From contig JAEEVO010000017.1 in NCBI GenBank assembly GCA_016290905.1, positions 1 through 39,527 on the forward strand: 39,527 nucleotides of DNA, given 5' to 3'. The stretch's first letter is position 1, and the number at the start of each line of letters is the position of its first letter. Below the pieces are notes generated by a model, which saw only the letters and a list, made by a program, of their open reading frames with translations, was not told where the DNA came from and did not search any database. Below are positions 20,995 through 38,820 of the stretch, piece by piece. This DNA comes from Lachnospiraceae bacterium (lineage in GTDB: Bacteria > Bacillota > Clostridia > Lachnospirales > Lachnospiraceae). The position numbers were made by a program, and so were the translations under genes.

Positions 20995-21245
20995 AGAAAA
21001 AGCATTGACGGAAAGAGTAGTTCACTACGAATCATCCAGAGAGGACGGCATTTTGGTGGAAGCCGTTTATGAGGACGGGGGACGAAAACCATTCCTGAGC
21101 TGTAAGGCCGAAATCATAAGTAAGCGTTACCGTATGCCTGCGTTAAAGGATAGGATTTGTTGGAATCTGAAGTTAAAAGTTAAGGTGGAACCGTGCTGAC
21201 GCACCCTTAAGGATCATACGATCCTTGAGGGTGTTTTTGTTTTTC
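20995..21245 (+). promoter_or_regulatory. T-box riboswitch controlling thrS
   Basis: The leader has the T-box element AAGGTGGAACCGTG at 21182-21195, whose UGGAACC pairs with the tRNA acceptor end. The upstream part folds into a long stem I with AGAG and GGTGGAAG elements. An ACC triplet near 21096 could be the Thr specifier codon, though this was not confirmed by folding. The terminator follows at 21202. Uncharged tRNA-Thr should stabilise the antiterminator and allow thrS transcription. Confidence 0.9.
21202..21245 (+). terminator. T-box regulated terminator
   Basis: CACCCTTAAGGATC, loop ATAC, GATCCTTGAGGGTG, then TTTTTGTTTTTC: a 14-bp stem with one mismatch and a T-rich tail, 39 bases before the thrS ATG. 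Confidence 0.9.
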
Positions 21246-31249: not shown

Positions 31250-31310
31250 CTATTTCATGTTATCAATTTAATTGATAACTGAGCATAAATTGTTTTTATT
31301 ATAAAACCTA

Positions 31311-31339
31311 TTGACATAGTAGGTAATATGTGTTATAAC
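31311..31339 (+). promoter_or_regulatory. Promoter of the metY leader
   Basis: TTGACA (31311-31316), 17-bp spacer, TATAAC (31334-31339). The leader transcript to the metY ATG is about 450 bases, long enough for the attenuator at 31450-31634. Confidence 0.88.
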
Positions 31340-31403: not shown

Positions 31404-31466
31404 ATGAGTGTAAGAAAATGTAAGATTTGTGGAAAGGAGGCGCTAAGATATGACAGATACATATAA
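31404..31466 (+). CDS. Possible short ORF with a CxxC motif in the metY leader
   Basis: ATG 31404 to TAA 31466 encodes 20 residues, MSVRKCKICGKEALRYDRYI, with AGGAAG 11 bases upstream. It overlaps the start and ribosome site of the Cys-Cys leader ORF at 31450 in another frame. It could tune translation of that leader or be chance. Confidence 0.35.
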   Translation: MSVRKCKICGKEALRYDRYI

Positions 31467-31572
31467 GAAAACTTATGTCATGTGTTGCCCACGAATGCAA
31501 AACTCCCGGGCAGAAAGTATGGCCGGGGCGTTCGATGAATATTTCATGCGCCTCGTAACTGAACGATGTTGA
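31450..31572 (+). CDS. Leader peptide A with Cys-Cys codons, upstream of metY
   Basis: 40 residues starting MTDTYKKTYVMCCPRMQNSR and ending in Cys, with a strong site GGAAAGGAGG 9 bases upstream. Cys12-Cys13 are coded TGT-TGC at 31483-31488. About 15 bases beyond lies CTCCCGGGCA (31503-31512), which can pair with TGCCCGGGAG (31602-31611), the 5' arm of the following terminator. A ribosome stalled at the Cys codons would leave CTCCCGGGCA free. No homologue is known to me; the role is inferred from layout. Confidence 0.7.
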   Translation: MTDTYKKTYVMCCPRMQNSRAESMAGAFDEYFMRLVTERC

Positions 31573-31634
31573 TCTTTAGAGAACACGATCTTCAAGCCAT
31601 TTGCCCGGGAGCAGTTATGTCTCGGGCTTTTTTT
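31503..31634 (+). promoter_or_regulatory. Attenuator A: alternative pairing and terminator before metY
   Basis: Terminator: GCCCGGGAG (31603-31611), nine-base loop, CTCGGGC (31621-31627), then seven T. Alternative: CTCCCGGGCA (31503-31512) with TGCCCGGGAG (31602-31611), ten perfect pairs. The two share the 31603-31611 strand and exclude each other. A further stem at about 31521-31553 lies between them. Expected logic: low Cys-tRNA stalls the ribosome, the antiterminator forms and metY is read. Confidence 0.7.
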
Positions 31635-31791: not shown

Positions 31792-33072
31792 ATGAGCAAT
31801 TACAAGTTTGAGACATTACAGTTACACGTAGGACAGGAGCAGGCAGACCCCGCAACAGATTCACGTGCGGTACCGATTTACCAGACAACATCTTATGTAT
31901 TCCATAACAGCAAGCATGCGGCAGACAGATTCGGACTTGCAGATGCGGGAAACATTTACGGAAGACTTACTAATTCGACACAGGATGTTCTTGAAAAGAG
32001 AATTGCAGCTCTTGAAGGCGGCAGCGCAGCTTTGGCACTTGCATCCGGTGCGGCAGCAATAACATATACAATTGAAGCTTTGGCAGCAAACGGCGGCCAT
32101 ATCGTAGCGCAGAAGACAATCTACGGCGGAAGCTACAACCTGCTTGCACATACACTTCCCCAGTACGGGATTGAGACCACATTTGTTGACGCACATAACC
32201 TTAAAGAGGTTGAGGCAGCGATCAAAGACAATACAAGAGCCATCTATCTTGAGACTTTAGGAAATCCCAACAGCGATATACCGGATGTAGATGCTATTTC
32301 CGAGATAGCTCACAAGTACGGACTTCCCGTAGTAGTTGACAATACTTTTGGTACTCCTTATCTTTTCAGGGCTTTTGAGCATGGCGCAGATATCGTGGTT
32401 CATTCGGCTACAAAATTTATAGGTGGACACGGGACCACACTTGGTGGTATAATCGTTGAGTCCGGTAAGTTCAACTGGAAGGCAAGCGGTAAGTATCCGA
32501 ATATCGCAGCTCCCAATCCAAGCTACCATGGAGTATCTTTCTACGATGTGGTTGGACCTGCAGCTTTCGTTACATTTATCAGAGCTATCCTTCTTCGTGA
32601 TACCGGCGCTACCATTTCTCCTTTCAATGCATTCCTGTTACTTCAGGGCATTGAGACACTTTCCTTAAGACTTGACAGACATGCAGAGAATACAAAGAAG
32701 GTAGTTGAGTTTTTAAAGAATCATCCCAAGGTTGCAAAGGTAAATCATCCTTCGCTTCCCGATCATCCCGATCATGAGCTTTATAAAAGATACTTCCCCA
32801 ACGGTGGTGGATCGATATTTACATTCGATATCAAAGGCGGAAAGGAAGAGGCATGGAAGTTCATCGATAACCTTAAGATATTCTCACTTCTTGCCAATGT
32901 AGCAGATGTAAAGAGCCTGGTTATCCATCCTGCAACAACCACTCATTCACAGCTTTCGGAGGAAGAACTTTTAGATCAGGGTATCACCCAGAGCACGATC
33001 AGACTTTCAATAGGTACTGAGCATATCGATGATATCATCGCAGACCTTGAAAACGGATTCGCAGCAGTGTAA
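31792..33072 (+). CDS. metY: O-acetylhomoserine sulfhydrylase
   Basis: 426 residues from ATG 31792 (AAGGAG upstream); the in-frame A-rich stretch from 31717 lacks a ribosome site. The PLP lysine is K208 in HSATKFIGGHG. TLQLHVGQEQ at the start, IYGRLTNST and EGIETLSLR-type segments match the Cys/Met-metabolism PLP family of the 430-residue MetY/Cys25 class, longer than cystathionine lyases. It makes homocysteine from O-acetylhomoserine and sulfide, or cysteine from O-acetylserine. It shares the leader-controlled transcript with cysK. Confidence 0.92.
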   Translation: MSNYKFETLQLHVGQEQADPATDSRAVPIYQTTSYVFHNSKHAADRFGLADAGNIYGRLTNSTQDVLEKRIAALEGGSAALALASGAAAITYTIEALAANGGHIVAQKTIYGGSYNLLAHTLPQYGIETTFVDAHNLKEVEAAIKDNTRAIYLETLGNPNSDIPDVDAISEIAHKYGLPVVVDNTFGTPYLFRAFEHGADIVVHSATKFIGGHGTTLGGIIVESGKFNWKASGKYPNIAAPNPSYHGVSFYDVVGPAAFVTFIRAILLRDTGATISPFNAFLLLQGIETLSLRLDRHAENTKKVVEFLKNHPKVAKVNHPSLPDHPDHELYKRYFPNGGGSIFTFDIKGGKEEAWKFIDNLKIFSLLANVADVKSLVIHPATTTHSQLSEEELLDQGITQSTIRLSIGTEHIDDIIADLENGFAAV

Positions 33073-33169: not shown

Positions 33170-34099
33170 ATGTCAAACATTTATAAGGGAACATTAGGAT
33201 TAATAGGAAATACTCCGCTTGTTGAAGTAACAAACATTGAAAAGGAACTCGGACTTGAGGCAACAGTACTTGTTAAGCTTGAATACTTTAATCCCGCAGG
33301 AAGCGTTAAGGATCGTATCGCAAAGGCCATGATCGAAGACGCAGAGAAGAGGGGAGTTTTAAAGGAAGGCTCCGTTATCATCGAGCCCACCTCCGGTAAT
33401 ACCGGTATAGGTCTTGCAGCTATTTCGGCTGCAAAGGGATATCGCATCATCCTTACAATGCCTGAGACCATGAGCGTTGAGAGAAGAAACATTCTTAAGG
33501 CATACGGTGCAGAGATAGTTCTTACCGAAGGCGCAAAGGGTATGAAGGGTGCTATCGCAAAGGCTGAAGAGCTTGCCAAGGAAATCGAGGGCAGCTTTAT
33601 CCCCGGACAGTTCGTAAATCCCGCAAACCCCGCAATCCATAAGGCAACAACAGGTCCCGAGATCTGGAATGATACAGACGGAAAAGTTGATATCTTCATC
33701 GCAGGCGTAGGCACAGGCGGAACACTTACAGGTGTCGGCGAGTATCTCAAGGAGAAGAATCCCGATATAAAGATAGTTGCATTGGAACCCGAGGATTCAC
33801 CCGTTCTTTCGGAAGGAAGAAGCGGTGCACATAAGATCCAGGGTATTGGAGCCGGATTTGTTCCAGACGTCCTTAACACAAAAATCTATGATGAAATCTT
33901 TAAGGCTCCTGGTCAGAATGCATTTGATACCGCAAAGCTCCTGGCAAAGAAGGAAGGTATCTCCGTAGGTATTTCCTCAGGTGCAGCACTTTACGGTGCA
34001 ATAACACTTGCACAGCGTCCCGAGAACAAGGGTAAGACAATTGTTGCACTGCTTCCCGACAGTGGTGACAGATATTATTCAACAGCATTATTCTCTTGA
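33170..34099 (+). CDS. cysK: Cysteine synthase A
   Basis: 309 residues, the usual CysK length. PLP lysine K47 in [11 protein letters not shown], the substrate loop [11 protein letters not shown] and the phosphate-binding [12 protein letters not shown] are all present. It makes cysteine from O-acetylserine and sulfide in the cytoplasm. AAAGAAGGA precedes the ATG. It follows metY by 97 bases with no separate promoter seen. Confidence 0.95.
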
Positions 34100-34108
34100 A
34101 AAAGTTGC

Positions 34109-34146
34109 GTAAGGCCTCCGACATGTAAAAGTGCCGGGGGTCTTAC
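34109..34146 (+). other. Hairpin after cysK
   Basis: GTAAGGCCTCCGACA, loop, TGCCGGGGGTCTTAC: a 15-bp stem with a few mismatches. It is followed by AAAAAG, not T, so read-through into leader B is possible. Confidence 0.6.
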
Positions 34147-34172
34147 AAAAAGAAGAATTGGAGACAATGATT

Positions 34173-34268
34173 ATGAAAACTAACGGCAGACAGGATTATT
34201 CATATTTAAGCGGCATAAGCTTCATGTGTATGTGTTGTTATACATATGAGGTCTGTTGCCGTGTGTAA
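34173..34268 (+). CDS. Leader peptide B, cysteine-rich, upstream of the SsuA-like gene
   Basis: 31 residues: MKTNGRQDYSYLSGISF, then MCMCCYTYEVCCRV. Five Cys codons (residues 19, 21, 22, 28, 29), so about one residue in six. GGAGACA lies 8-14 bases upstream of the ATG. An intrinsic terminator starts 38 bases after the stop codon. The run of Cys codons ahead of a terminator, upstream of sulfur-uptake genes, fits a cysteine-sensing attenuator leader. It has no known homologue to me. Confidence 0.75.
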   Translation: MKTNGRQDYSYLSGISFMCMCCYTYEVCCRV

Positions 34269-34333
34269 AACTGTATTCCTGTAATTATATATTACAATGT
34301 GGATGATCAGGCACGGCGGTGCCTGATTTTTTT
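34256..34333 (+). promoter_or_regulatory. Attenuator B: terminator with competing pairing
   Basis: Terminator: ATCAGGCAC (34306-34314), loop GGCG, GTGCCTGAT (34319-34327), then a T run: nine perfect pairs. Competing pair: TTGCCGTG (34256-34263, inside codons 29-31 of the leader) with CACGGCGG (34312-34319), eight pairs including two G-U. A ribosome paused at Cys19-22 leaves TTGCCGTG free; one that reaches the stop codon covers it. Confidence 0.7.
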
Positions 34334-34350: not shown

Positions 34351-34422
34351 ATGGAACGGTACTTATCTGCCGGAGGTTTGATAGAATGTCAAAGCAGGTT
34401 AAAATGCCGAGAACAGTATTGA
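34351..34422 (+). CDS. Short ORF behind attenuator B
   Basis: ATG 34351 to TGA 34422 encodes 23 residues (MERYLSAGGLIECQSRLKCR, EQY) with a very strong AAGGAGGAG eight bases upstream. Two Cys. No family recognised. It may be a second leader peptide or the remnant of an older gene start. Confidence 0.45.
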   Translation: MERYLSAGGLIECQSRLKCREQY

Positions 34423-34479: not shown

Positions 34480-35502
34480 ATGAAATTAAGAAAATTATTT
34501 GCATTAATATTATCAGCAGCACTTATATCGGTTTCAGTTACAGCTTGCGCTAAGGAATCAAATGCGGGCACAAAGGAAACGGAGAGTCTTAAGACCATAA
34601 GGGTCGGATACATGACGGGAATGCCGGACCAGTATGCAGGATATATCGGAACCGAACAGGGAATATTTGAAAAGCACGGGATCAAGATAGAGTCAAGCGA
34701 ATACGCTGCAGGAATCAACACGGTTGACGCAATAGCAACAGGAACGGTTGATATCGGACTTCTTGCTGATTATGCAGCGGTCAACCGCATAGGAAACACT
34801 CTTGATGCAACCAATCTTGTAATATTTTCCGAACTTGCTCTTTCGGAGCCGAACATCGGCGGTCTGTATGTAGCACCTCAGTATGCAAACGATCTCAAGT
34901 CACTTGACGGAAGCGAGGGCTGGATCACTCAGATAGGAACCGTATGGGAATATTACAACTGGCAGTCACAGAATTATATCGGTATCGATCCCGAAAAGCA
35001 GAAGATCGTTCAGACCGATTCAAAACAGACATCACTTGCACTTGCGGCACAGGGAAATGCTTCGGCCATCGTTGCTCATGGCGCAGACGGAAGACGCTTT
35101 GCAGAGCAGGGCTGGGTACTTGCAGTTTCATCAAAGGATATGGGAGTTAAGACCGGTATTTATCTTGTAACCACGAGAGAGTTCCTGGCAAATAACAGTG
35201 ATCTCATTGCAAATTATCTGAAGGCTCTCAATGAGAGCATAGACTATATATCGGCAAATACGGAAGAATCAGCAGTCAAGGCAGAAGCAAAATTCGGCGT
35301 ATTAAAGGATGACTTTGTTATTGCATGGAAATCATATAATTTTGAACTCGGATTTACCGAAGCAGGTGCAGAACATCTTGAAAAAGTCGGAGCATGGGCT
35401 CTTGAACACGGGAAATACGGCAAGGCATACGATATCCGCAAGTTCATAGATACTTCCGCAGCAGAAAAGGCAATCCCCGATAAGGTTACGATCAAAAAAT
35501 AA
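34480..35502 (+). CDS. SsuA/NMT1-type substrate-binding lipoprotein (sulfonate or sulfate-ester uptake)
   Basis: 340 residues from ATG 34480 (CAGGAG 9 bases upstream); an in-frame ATG at 34426 has no ribosome site and would bury the signal peptide. Lipobox VTAC gives the lipidated Cys near residue 23. The mature part opens IRVGYMTGMPDQYAGYIGTE and continues with DAIATGTVDIGLL, typical of the SsuA/TauA/ThiY periplasmic-binding fold. The ABC permease and ATPase are not in the window and may lie downstream. Context (sulfatase, AprA-like, Cys leader) points to an organosulfur ligand. Confidence 0.85.
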   Translation: MKLRKLFALILSAALISVSVTACAKESNAGTKETESLKTIRVGYMTGMPDQYAGYIGTEQGIFEKHGIKIESSEYAAGINTVDAIATGTVDIGLLADYAAVNRIGNTLDATNLVIFSELALSEPNIGGLYVAPQYANDLKSLDGSEGWITQIGTVWEYYNWQSQNYIGIDPEKQKIVQTDSKQTSLALAAQGNASAIVAHGADGRRFAEQGWVLAVSSKDMGVKTGIYLVTTREFLANNSDLIANYLKALNESIDYISANTEESAVKAEAKFGVLKDDFVIAWKSYNFELGFTEAGAEHLEKVGAWALEHGKYGKAYDIRKFIDTSAAEKAIPDKVTIKK

Positions 35503-35516
35503 AAGGAGGTGTTCGG

Positions 35517-36797
35517 ATGTCTGATCTTGCAAAGGCAGCTACAGAACTGTATGAATACGGTTTTGCTTTGGTGGTAACCGAAGCAACACACTATGGTTCC
35601 GATGACAAGGGAATAACCCATTTTCGGGAGTTCCCCACGGAGAAAAACAAAAAAGTCGTTAGACTGAATATGGATACATTGTATTCGCTCGCATGGACAC
35701 AGCTTGCAAGAACGCCATATGTGGTTCATATTCCTAAGATAACAGAACGTTATTATCTTTTCCCGATAATGGACGCATATACCAACGTGGTCGAGTCGAT
35801 CGGAACACGTACTCCGGAGAGAGCCGAGGGAGATTATCTGCTTATACTGGAAGGTGAAGATATCCCCAAAGGTTATGAAAACCACAGGATAATACGTCTT
35901 AAAAACTCACTCAATGCAGTTCTGCTCCGTATCGAAACAAGAGGTAAGGCTGATTATGGTTTTGTAAACAGTCTTCAGGACAGGTTTGTTTTTAAGCCCT
36001 TGTATGAAGACAGGATAAAATCTTCGGAACATGAAGCACCGGAATCTCCGGTTGCATTTACCGCAGGCCTGAGTGCCGAAGAATTTTTCAAACTGTTCGC
36101 GAAGCTTTCAAAAGAAAATCCGATAGCTGATGAAAGGTATGTAAAATACTTTGAGCTTTTCGGATATGACAGGGAAAACGGAAGCTTTGCTTTTGAAAAT
36201 CTTTCGGAAGAACAGAAGGAAGCGCTTGAGCAGGGGCGTATCAATGCTCTTGATATCTTAAGAAAAGGAATAAGAAGCGATAAATACGGTGTGCGAAAAA
36301 GAGGCTGGCTGTCAATTACCGGCGGTATAGGAAATTATGGTGATGACTATCGCCAACGTGCACTGACGGCATACGGCGGATGGGGTGCGAATCTAATAGA
36401 GGACAGCGCGTATGTTGCAGGATTTGGTGATGATGACGGGGAGAGATTTTCAAACCGTCATTCATACAGACTCCATTTCGCGCCTGACGGATATCCTCAC
36501 GCCGCAGTGTTCTGGTCGATCACTCTTTACGGAGAACCGAGTATGTATCCGGCCGCAAATTCTATTGATCGATTTGCGATAAATTCTTTCGATCTGGAAA
36601 ACGGGAATGTATCGAAAAACGAGGATGGTTCTTTGGATATATATATTTCAAAGGACGCTCCCGAAGGCGAGACTGCAAGAAACTGGCTCCCCGCTCCACA
36701 GAATGAGGAACATTTTTCACTTACGATAAGGATATATTATCCTGATGAGATAACAATACGCGGACAGTGGGATCCTCCGTCGATAACAAAAATATGA
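35517..36797 (+). CDS. DUF1254/DUF1214 domain protein
   Basis: 426 residues, no signal peptide; AAAGGAGGTG precedes the ATG. The N-terminal half has VRLNMDTLYSLAWTQL and YLFPIMDAYTNVVESIGTRT (DUF1254). The C-terminal half has YRLHFAPDGYPHAAVFWSIT and LDIYISKDAPEG (DUF1214). The biochemical role of this pair is not established. It lies between a sulfur-compound binding protein and an alkylsulfatase, with 14- and 13-base gaps, so it probably acts on or with the same substrate. Confidence 0.88.
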   Translation: MSDLAKAATELYEYGFALVVTEATHYGSDDKGITHFREFPTEKNKKVVRLNMDTLYSLAWTQLARTPYVVHIPKITERYYLFPIMDAYTNVVESIGTRTPERAEGDYLLILEGEDIPKGYENHRIIRLKNSLNAVLLRIETRGKADYGFVNSLQDRFVFKPLYEDRIKSSEHEAPESPVAFTAGLSAEEFFKLFAKLSKENPIADERYVKYFELFGYDRENGSFAFENLSEEQKEALEQGRINALDILRKGIRSDKYGVRKRGWLSITGGIGNYGDDYRQRALTAYGGWGANLIEDSAYVAGFGDDDGERFSNRHSYRLHFAPDGYPHAAVFWSITLYGEPSMYPAANSIDRFAINSFDLENGNVSKNEDGSLDIYISKDAPEGETARNWLPAPQNEEHFSLTIRIYYPDEITIRGQWDPPSITKI

Positions 36798-36810
36798 GGT
36801 AAATATTATT

Positions 36811-38820
36811 ATGAGCAATATAATTCTGAACAATGAGGTCAAAGGTGCATCTGAAGAGACGTTGAAAAGAAACAGGAGAGCAGCCGAGGAGCTCGGACTT
36901 GATCTGAATGATACTGTCAACAGTGAGCTTGAGCTTGCGTATCAAAACCGGATACTGCCTCTTGATGATTACAAGGTGACGGCAGAAGACGGAAGCGTTG
37001 TCTTTGATCTTACGCAATATTCATTTTTCAAACAGAAGGCAGCTGCCGAGACCGTAAATCCCAGTCTATGGTTGAACGGTAAGTCAAATTACGCGGCAGG
37101 GGTATTTGAGGTTTTAAAAGATAAGATTTATCAGGTTCGCGGACTCGATATTGCGAATTTTACGATCGTAAGGAGTAAGACCGGGTGGATAGTTCTTGAT
37201 ACCACATCCTTCCCCGAGGTAGCCGCTGTATCTTTGAAGTTACTGAAACAGGCTATAGGAGAAAATATTAAAGATAATATCAGAGCCGTGATAATCAGTC
37301 ATTCCCACGGAGATCATTTCGGAGGAATTGCCGGAACGGTTGATGAAGATAAGGTCGGGAAGCTGTCGGATGGAAAGATCCCGATAATCGTACCGGCAGG
37401 GTTTGATGAAGAAACGGTTAAGGAAAATGTTTTTGCAGGACATGCCATGAGCGTGCGTGCGAGATATCAGTTTGGTGTAGGTATTCCCGCCGGCGTAAGG
37501 GGAAAGGTGTCGGCCGGTATTGGAATCCCGGGCGGCAGAGGCAGATTTTCATATATCCGTCCTACCGATTTCATAACAGAGGATTCCGTACTCGATATAG
37601 ATGGTCTAAAGGTTGAGTTCCAGCTTACTCCGGGTACCGAGGCGCCTGCGGAAATGAATAATTATTTCCCGGAATACAGGGCATTTTGGGCTGCCGAGAA
37701 TTGCTCCGGATCACTTCACAATCTTTATCCGATCCGAGGGGCACAGCTTCGTGACAGCGCGGCATGGTGGAGATTCACTCAGATCGCGCTTGAAAAATAC
37801 GGAAGAAATTCCGATGTTGTATTTCAGGCACATAATCATCCGCATTACAATACTCCCGAAAACCCTGAGGGAGTTGTGGAATACCTGAGGAACAATTCAG
37901 CCATATACAAGCTGATCCATGATCGGACACTTCTTTTGGCCAATCTGGGCAAGACCGCAAAAGAAACGGCAAAGCTTATAACGATCCCGGAAAAACTGAA
38001 GAAGGCGTGGTATATCAGACCGTATTACGGTTCGCTGCAGATAAACTCGCGCGCAGTTTATACCAAGTATCTCGGTTTCTGGAACGGAGATCCGAATGAG
38101 ATCGATCCGCTTACCGAGAAAGAAGAGGCTGAGCTTTTCCTCAGATATGCGGGCTCAGAGGAACATGTTCTGGAGCTGGCCGAAGAGGATCTTGCAAACG
38201 GTAAATACGAACAGGCTGCAAAGGCGGCAGGCTATGTGGTTTTCGCAAATCCCGGAAATCTGAAGGCACGTTATATCGAGGCAGACGCGTTCGAACAACT
38301 CGGATATCGTGCAGAATCGAGTGTATGGAGAAACGCATATTTAAGCGGAGCGCATGATCTGCGTGAACGTAAAACCGATGATCCGCTTAAGAACATTGTA
38401 TTAAAAGAAAATATCGTTTCCAAGCTGTCTCCGCGCATGCTTCTCGATTATCTCGGTATTGTCGCCGACGGTAGAAAAATAGCGGATGAAAATACTAAAT
38501 TCCGTCTTAACGTAGTGGATGCAAGAGCTGACGGTGATACGGATTACAAGGGAAAGAAGGTTAAAAAGGTTTCAGAGTTTTCGGTACATATCTATTACGG
38601 AACCGTTTTGTATTATGAAGGTCATACCGATGAAGAATTACCTGAGATCACGGTTCCCGAGGAGAAGCTTCCGCTGATACTCAACACGGAGAGCAATGCA
38701 ATCTTTGAGGCCGCGGAAACAGATATACCCGAGGTTATTGAAACCATAAGAAGCGCTGTTATCAACATACGGAAAGAAGCCTATTTCCCGATGGTAGAAG
38801 CTAATACGAGAGAATTATAA
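36811..38820 (+). CDS. SdsA-type alkylsulfatase (metallo-beta-lactamase fold)
   Basis: 669 residues; GAGGTAA precedes the ATG. The metal site SHSHGDHFGG gives H164, H166, D168 and H169. The SdsA-type segment EMNNYFPEYRAFWAAENCSG, SLHNLYPIRGAQLRDSAAWW is clear, followed by AHNHPHYN, the helical dimer domain (YIRPYYGSLQINSRAVYTKY) and an SCP2-like C-terminal domain. The Pseudomonas SdsA1 relatives hydrolyse alkyl sulfates to alcohol and sulfate and are exported. This one has no signal peptide, so it should act in the cytoplasm on imported sulfate esters. Confidence 0.9.
   Translation: MSNIILNNEVKGASEETLKRNRRAAEELGLDLNDTVNSELELAYQNRILPLDDYKVTAEDGSVVFDLTQYSFFKQKAAAETVNPSLWLNGKSNYAAGVFEVLKDKIYQVRGLDIANFTIVRSKTGWIVLDTTSFPEVAAVSLKLLKQAIGENIKDNIRAVIISHSHGDHFGGIAGTVDEDKVGKLSDGKIPIIVPAGFDEETVKENVFAGHAMSVRARYQFGVGIPAGVRGKVSAGIGIPGGRGRFSYIRPTDFITEDSVLDIDGLKVEFQLTPGTEAPAEMNNYFPEYRAFWAAENCSGSLHNLYPIRGAQLRDSAAWWRFTQIALEKYGRNSDVVFQAHNHPHYNTPENPEGVVEYLRNNSAIYKLIHDRTLLLANLGKTAKETAKLITIPEKLKKAWYIRPYYGSLQINSRAVYTKYLGFWNGDPNEIDPLTEKEEAELFLRYAGSEEHVLELAEEDLANGKYEQAAKAAGYVVFANPGNLKARYIEADAFEQLGYRAESSVWRNAYLSGAHDLRERKTDDPLKNIVLKENIVSKLSPRMLLDYLGIVADGRKIADENTKFRLNVVDARADGDTDYKGKKVKKVSEFSVHIYYGTVLYYEGHTDEELPEITVPEEKLPLILNTESNAIFEAAETDIPEVIETIRSAVINIRKEAYFPMVEANTREL

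Follow-up and report, generated by a model that had tools for sequence, protein, structure and literature searches.

The classical amino-acid attenuators, of the trp, his and leu type, are systems of the enterobacteria. Leaders with cysteine codons have been reported as polycysteine leader ORFs in mycobacteria (Canestrari 2020, cited in PMC13236596) and as cys leaders in actinobacteria, where no conserved terminator hairpin was seen and Rho was proposed (PMC1262725), and in Rhodobacterales the uORFC-8-2 motif, located before cysS, is predicted to function by ribosome-mediated attenuation (PMC8632094). A histidine leader precedes hisS paralogues in bacilli, and the authors of that study were aware of no prior leader peptide system beyond the Proteobacteria and Actinobacteria, ermC excepted (PMC2965389). 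For clostridia and Bacillales, the cysteine-related systems described are Cys T-boxes, S-boxes and CymR, and several clostridial cysK and cysP2 genes suggest that additional mechanisms of cysteine control may exist in clostridia (PMC2940859). The open-licence literature that we searched describes no Cys-codon leader attenuators for Clostridia.

A candidate for such a leader, here termed leader B, lies between cysK and a set of organosulfur genes in a stretch of 39,527 nucleotides from a Lachnospiraceae bacterium (the window; GenBank assembly GCA_016290905.1, contig JAEEVO010000017.1). We consider it likely, with a probability of roughly 0.78, that leader B attenuates transcription by a ribosome-mediated mechanism responsive to the supply of Cys-tRNA; translation, the ribosome stall, the response to cysteine and the common transcript are all inferred, and there are no expression data.

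Leader B, its operon and its homologue

A preliminary description, made from the sequence alone, had named a 31-codon ORF with a ribosome site and five Cys codons, a nine-pair terminator and a strand competing with it; all of these held, at the same positions, while the 1:2 hairpin, the homologue within the genus, the second short ORF beyond the terminator and the further Cys leader before metZ (leader A) were absent from that account (Table 1). Read from ATG 34173 to TAA 34266-34268, the ORF specifies MKTNGRQDYSYLSGISFMCMCCYTYEVCCRV, with Cys at codons 19, 21, 22, 28 and 29. An alternative ATG at 34167 would add two codons, and the start at 34173 is preferred because the homologue in genome G022 keeps this ATG alone, at equal spacing from GGAG. 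The antiterminator strand is complementary to CACGGCGG (34312-34319), in the 5' half of the terminator, and codons Cys19-22 fall within the 5' arm and loop of the 1:2 hairpin. Computed energies of the three stems are -25.6 kcal/mol for 1:2, -20.4 kcal/mol for the 2:3 duplex and -15.0 kcal/mol for 3:4. Leader B thus fulfils two criteria for ribosome-mediated attenuators, namely a short ORF with a ribosome site and clustered Cys codons, and an intrinsic terminator between that ORF and the structural genes.

Table 1. Coordinates of leaders, RNA elements and genes in the window
Feature	Positions	Strand	Remarks
Palindrome ACCTA-N9-TAGGT over promoter -35	31306..31324	+	TTGACA 31311-31316, TATAAC 31334-31339
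Leader A	31450..31572	+	40-codon ORF MTDTYKKTYVMCCPRMQNSRAESMAGAFDEYFMRLVTERC, before metZ-cysK; Cys codons 31483-31488; AAGGAGG ribosome site
Leader A 1:2 structure	31491..31535	+	31491-31498 with 31528-31535, strand 2 enclosed
Leader A antiterminator strand 2	31503..31512	+	CTCCCGGGCA, pairs with 31602-31611
Leader A intrinsic terminator	31602..31634	+	GCCCGGGA...TCTCGGGC + T7
metZ, O-acetylhomoserine sulfhydrylase (homocysteine synthase)	31792..33072	+	TIGR01326 above cut-off
cysK, cysteine synthase A	33170..34099	+	TIGR01139 above cut-off
Leader B	34160..34268	+	GGAG 34160-34163 plus 31-codon ORF 34173-34268
Leader B 1:2 hairpin	34212..34260	+	34212-34215 with 34257-34260; 34219-34232 with 34239-34252
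Leader B antiterminator strand	34256..34263	+	TTGCCGTG; identical in G022
Leader B intrinsic terminator	34306..34333	+	ATCAGGCAC-GGCG-GTGCCTGAT (34306-34327), nine pairs, six more T up to 34333
Second short ORF	34351..34422	+	MERYLSAGGLIECQSRLKCREQY; homologues in G022 and G012
NMT1/SsuA-like substrate-binding lipoprotein (SBP)	34480..35502	+	PF09084; SsuA_fam match below cut-off only
DUF1254/DUF1214 protein	35517..36797	+	
Alkyl-sulfatase-like metallo-beta-lactamase protein	36811..38820	+	PF14863, PF00753

Between cysK and leader B we found no terminator and no promoter better than chance. The window copy is therefore probably read from the metZ-cysK promoter and would act inside the operon, a correction to its position as first described, and leaders A and B likely share this one operon, with the common transcript inferred. 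A very stable hairpin without a U-run (34109-34146) also occupies the interval. At the metZ-cysK promoter, the palindrome ACCTA-N9-TAGGT is the single match in the window, against 0.02 expected, and a close variant is present in 44 of 186 loci, many of which overlap or were collected for matching that pattern. We infer that it is probably a repressor site, perhaps of a CymR/Rrf2-type repressor; the palindrome alone is seen, and there are no binding data.

The preliminary description had set the leader against the T-box, S-box or CymR control usual for clostridial cysteine genes. An Rfam scan of both leaders returned no family at threshold, T-box and S-box included; a CymR-type site remains possible at the promoter palindrome. 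The same scan finds a T-box elsewhere in the window (20996-21211), upstream of an ORF that we take to be threonyl-tRNA-synthetase-like, so that T-boxes are present in this genome. None of three leader peptides has an NCBIfam match.

In a DNA search of 99 genomes, four matched leader B. Besides the window's own genome these are G022, which belongs to the same genus and matches at 77% over 180 bases, and two further genomes with 24-base matches. G022 is a Lachnospiraceae MAG from water-buffalo omasum, and its leader B block lies on contig JAFYYN010000065.1. The aligned core covers 127 bp at 84% identity and takes in the second half of the leader and the sequence up to and including the terminator. 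The leader's first half lacks conservation, and 10 of the 12 codons changed in meaning fall within codons 2-16 (of all 31 codons, 15 are identical and 4 synonymous). Kept are Cys19, 21, 22 and 29 (CMCC included), the antiterminator strand, all three pairings (-20.5, -15.0 and -13.0 kcal/mol for 1:2, 2:3 and 3:4) and the terminator; Cys28 is replaced by Phe, and Ser16 by Cys. One C-G pair of the 1:2 stem is compensated to U-A, and a C to U change in the terminator is accommodated as G-U in the terminator stem as well as in the antiterminator pairing, covariation nevertheless being unproven for leader B because only two rows exist. An outcome named at the outset as refuting attenuation, that the Cys codons or the two pairings would prove unconserved in relatives, was looked for and was not met, on the evidence of this one relative. 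Leader B was found in 2 of 24 genus genomes, many of them incomplete, with three weak peptide matches (E 0.2-0.3) left uninspected; it is absent at three SBP operons examined outside the genus and at one SBP copy in genome G012.

The G022 block is preceded by a siroheme-synthase-like gene (NAD_binding_7) and followed by a homologous uptake operon that comprises a sulfate-type ABC ATPase, a TauC/SaoP-like permease, an SBP that shares 52% identity with that of the window, a further protein that matches neither Pfam nor NCBIfam, and an arylsulfotransferase-like protein. Just upstream of the leader lie a promoter-like TTGACA/TATAAT pair and the ACCTA-N9-TAGGT palindrome. This setting bears on a rival reading in which the hairpin merely terminates the metZ-cysK operon, the Cys-rich ORF being there by coincidence. 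The location about 200 bases past cysK and the frequency of terminator-like sites by chance speak for it. Against it, the G022 block comes after the siroheme-synthase-like gene and not after cysK, yet again stands before the uptake operon, and it keeps the Cys codons and the competing strand; we regard a plain operon terminator as very unlikely.

The second short ORF begins MERYLSAGGLIEC in the window and reads MKRHLSAGGLINC in G022 (locus L044) and MHRYYSTGGMTGC in G012 (locus L113), each of these two ending at a stop. Its segment LSAGGLI is preserved between the window and G022 through synonymous changes, and the ORF and the SBP co-occur in the same 3 of 24 genus genomes; in G012 it precedes the SBP without an attenuator. 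Three outside matches to its pattern among genomes of the family were judged to be chance.

Chance controls, ribosome position and the proposed switch

Short ORFs with at least five Cys plus CxCC numbered 2 of 5971 in 20 dinucleotide-shuffled windows; the real window holds 359 ORFs 20-50 aa long, and five or more Cys occur in six of them. The strength of the antiterminator pairing was equalled at the ORF end in 7 of 2000 shuffles and anywhere in leader B in 14 of 500, and the 1:2 hairpin was equalled in none of 500. The terminator by itself is weak evidence, because the scan expects 1.3 terminator-like sites per shuffled region.

Two models relate folding to ribosome position. In the equilibrium model, where only RNA downstream of the ribosome is allowed to fold, antitermination in the window leader reaches its maximum (0.50) with the ribosomal A site at Cys21, the second Cys of CMCC, and is zero from the Tyr after CMCC up to the stop codon, where the terminator stands at 1.00. 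For G022, Cys21 is merely a local peak (0.33), codons 2-8 being higher (0.75-0.76). In the emerging-RNA model, where the 3' arm of the terminator is still emerging, pairing of strand 2 with strand 3 in the window is 0.93-1.00 at Cys21 and 22 and 0.98 falling to 0.32 at Cys19, and in G022 it is 0.79-1.00 at the Cys codons; such pairing never occurs near the stop, yet is present at several codons upstream of the Cys codons. Since strand 2 is also free before them, the Cys codons are the last permissive stall sites and not the sole ones. The pause logic first proposed, with the strand freed at Cys19-22 and masked at the stop, agrees in part with the fold of the window leader and less well with that of G022. 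A weakness conceded there, that a stall at Cys28-29 would favour termination, is softened because Cys28 is Phe in G022, whose additional Cys sits farther upstream; it still counts against the model.

We propose that with ample cysteine the ribosome would reach the stop codon and cover the antiterminator strand, or the 1:2 hairpin would re-form; the 3:4 hairpin would then assemble, and transcription would stop ahead of the organosulfur genes. When Cys-tRNA is scarce, the ribosome would stall at Cys19-22 and block the 1:2 hairpin, the antiterminator strand would pair with the 5' half of the terminator, and polymerase would read through. The window's attenuator B would in this way act within the metZ-cysK operon, and leader A, at the operon head, would follow the same logic with a Cys leader unrelated in sequence.

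Leader A and family A

The 5' arm of the leader A terminator is complementary to CTCCCGGGC inside its ORF. With a 371-base region around this leader as query, matches at E <=0.01 came from 18 of the 24 genus genomes, piecewise, as promoter box, leader core and terminator. Of 42 sites inspected (40 retrieved loci plus one each in L113 and L114), 22 carry a leader, which together with the window gives 23 family A leaders in at least 13 of the 24 genomes, mostly before sulfur genes. The genes that follow are metZ-cysK; cystine/methionine-type uptake genes (SBP_bac_3 plus NlpA, MetN-like); an M20 peptidase with cysK; and JAB/ThiF-rhodanese genes, with family searches on downstream genes run for L154, L151, L162 and L156 only. 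The translated Cys attenuator inferred here, initially thought unusual, is not a solitary case, a second family being spread through the genus. The core TGY-CGA-ATG-N6-TCCCGGG does not occur in L001, L002 and L044, the loci of leader B, and this pattern misses some diverged family A members too. In viral contigs, the family A core gave a single match, inside coding sequence, dismissed as chance.

The other 20 inspected sites comprise ten with the promoter box or a close variant but no leader (L166, L167, L168, L170, L176, L178, L179, L181, L184 and L185), each before what we take to be a cysteine-desulfurase-like gene; six with the box before other genes, again leaderless; and four that are partial, weak or unclear (L164, L172, L175 and L183). 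The first ten hint, as a possibility, at one repressor for cysteine and iron-sulfur genes. One of the six is metZ-cysK of genome G018 (L180), which has a promoter box only and no leader. In genome G004, the ORF before metZ at L175 contains CGA-ATG, but its Cys codons all follow that motif and a clear terminator is lacking, and L164 retains just the element's terminator, ahead of a GST_C-domain gene; both may be partial or degenerate family A elements and were excluded from the leader count. The window's own genome also carries a diverged family A leader before a JAB-like gene (L165, contig C106), in which strand 2 and its partner are replaced by ACATATAATATG / CATATTATATGT.

The analysed set comprises 21 of the 23 leaders, L158 and L159 being left out as near copies of L156 and L157. 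Every one of the 21 has a Cys no more than two codons ahead of CGA-ATG, and in 18 a Cys codon directly adjoins that motif, counts that partly reflect selection because members were picked by eye for Cys in this position. A loose ribosome-site pattern is matched by 19 of 21, the other two beginning too close to the edge of the scored stretch. The variants MCCRM, MCCCRM, MCWCRM, MCCPRM, MCCYRM, CMCMCRM and YMCRM differ by whole codons, which indicates translation. These observations weigh on the alternative that the RNA binds a protein or metabolite in the manner of a riboswitch, the ORF being a by-product of a conserved RNA. In its favour, the core is conserved chiefly as RNA, 12 of 31 leader B codons differing in meaning, and all 21 family A members carry CGAATG unchanged; against it, ribosome sites and frames are retained, the extra codons are whole, and no Rfam family reaches threshold. 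We hold this reading, too, to be very unlikely.

In 18 of 21 family A members, strand 2 begins 13-16 bases downstream, counted from the first base of the last Cys codon (range 9-19 over the set), and 13-16 bases is about the reach of the footprint of a stalled ribosome. For 20 of 21 members, no more than 2 of 300 shuffles equal the antiterminator duplex (13 of 300 in L169), and a terminator is present in all 21, taken as the best-scoring hairpin without a shuffle control. The 1:2 hairpin is less distinctive, equalled by at most 10 of 200 shuffles (beating 95%) in only 6 of 21; for the window's leader A the count is 4 of 200. In alignment A5 (20 rows; L153, a near copy of L152, omitted), 92.9% of cells in the 2:3 helix are paired and 4 of 10 pairs are changed on both sides, with 0 of 500 shuffles and slid controls at 22-56%. 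The alternative set of 1:2, inner stem and terminator is 90.4% paired, with seven pairs changed on both sides (1, 3 and 3 per helix) and slid controls at 29-54%; helix 1 (1:2) itself has 89.7% of cells paired and its one pair so changed. As the rows are related, family A shuffle counts are not probabilities, and A5 is a sequence alignment with a one-column shift of some rows at the terminator and at a second antiterminator helix, which was left uncounted. A third criterion, alternative mutually exclusive stems with compensatory changes, is thus fulfilled in family A by 20 related rows, leader B having two rows and one compensatory pair. When folding is computed at equilibrium and the ribosome is treated as a block, 12 of 21 members show antitermination above 0.5 for a ribosome at the last Cys codon; two to nine codons further on, 20 of 21 lie below 0.1, and with the ribosome at the stop codon 14 of 21 have a terminator value above 0.5.

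A further rival accepts a translated attenuator and holds that Met codons (FMCMCC) are sensed jointly with Cys or instead of it. Met alternates with Cys in leader B, L154 and L157 (CMCMC); L154 lies upstream of a cystine/MetQ-type binding protein and a MetN-like ATPase, L157 merely resembling it; and in genome G141 msrA- and metQ-like genes follow a leader rich in Met, MMMSMMCMCM. Against this, all 21 family A members retain Cys, not Met, within the pair of codons that precedes CGA-ATG, and beyond these control codons a ribosome no longer leaves strand 2 free. Joint Met sensing is accordingly graded unlikely, and the sensing of Cys-tRNA remains the preferred reading. The G141 leader, from a different genus of the family, reads MSSNRIERKEMAVMMMSMMCMCMHIHGSFVVP (L064 1464-1562) and has a terminator with a matching antiterminator, the sequences themselves being different. 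It is conceivably a methionine attenuator, the downstream genes being those we take to be msrA- and metQ-like. Its match (E 3.2e-5 per genome among 397 genomes) is suggestive and no proof of homology, the terminator wins at every codon in the equilibrium model, and a search for relatives gave one near-identical copy (G464) and eight other loci whose short ORFs looked like chance.

The G141 leader came from a search of 397 family genomes with model R1, in which 31 had a match at E <=1, the window's own genome included, and the match in G141 was taken to be a real leader. The R1 matches aligned at L065-L069 looked like chance, the remaining matches were not individually inspected, and within the genus six weak matches outside the window's genome and G022 likewise looked like chance. 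A broad pattern, TGYATGTGYTGYT, matches 274 of the 397 genomes and is useless as a census because none of 30 new loci examined had a convincing leader. The exact pattern MCMCC[YF]x[YF] gave 20 loci in genome contigs, that of G022 alone convincing, and 'MCKGMSCICH' before cysD in L113 is an out-of-frame reading of what we take to be a ferredoxin-like gene.

What is shown for these leaders is the ORF, the Cys codons, the possible pairings, conservation in one relative and covariation in family A. The attenuation reading of the preliminary description is supported by this evidence; direct conservation of leader B is thin, and the stronger support is that from family A.

Significance and comparison with known systems

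The Cys leaders are a concrete candidate for the additional clostridial cysteine control suggested in PMC2940859. If our reading is true, leader-peptide attenuation would be a regulon-wide device in a genus of Clostridia, where such leaders have rarely been described, and the 21 analysed family A members provide a starting model for finding others. In a bolder version, which we find as easy to doubt as to accept, this one Lachnospiraceae genus would control much of its sulfur metabolism by translated attenuators rather than by T-boxes and S-boxes, using at least two unrelated Cys-counting leader families. Some of these leaders would alternate Cys with Met codons and so respond to both sulfur amino acids, one operon would have two leaders in succession, and the whole would be layered on a common promoter operator.

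The Cys T-box, S-box and CymR systems serve the same pathway, T-box and S-box being unmatched at these leaders. With the classical trp, his and leu attenuators, the leaders described here share a short ORF with control codons, three mutually exclusive stems and an intrinsic terminator; they differ in their Cys codons, in their occurrence in Lachnospiraceae before sulfur genes, and in the apparent placement of leader B within an operon. The actinobacterial and mycobacterial leaders likewise place Cys codons ahead of cys genes, but in contrast to those of PMC1262725, an intrinsic terminator and antiterminator exist in the Lachnospiraceae leaders. The uORFC-8-2 motif resembles them in its tandem Cys codons within the first stem and its terminator at the end, while being alphaproteobacterial and confined to the single target gene cysS. 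The histidine leader of bacilli is, as here, a regular leader peptide of the Firmicutes, although for a different amino acid. The mechanism is thus of a known kind, described for mycobacteria and predicted for cysS of Rhodobacterales, and it is likely that what appears new is the occurrence of two Cys-leader families, one of regulon size, in one genus of Clostridia.
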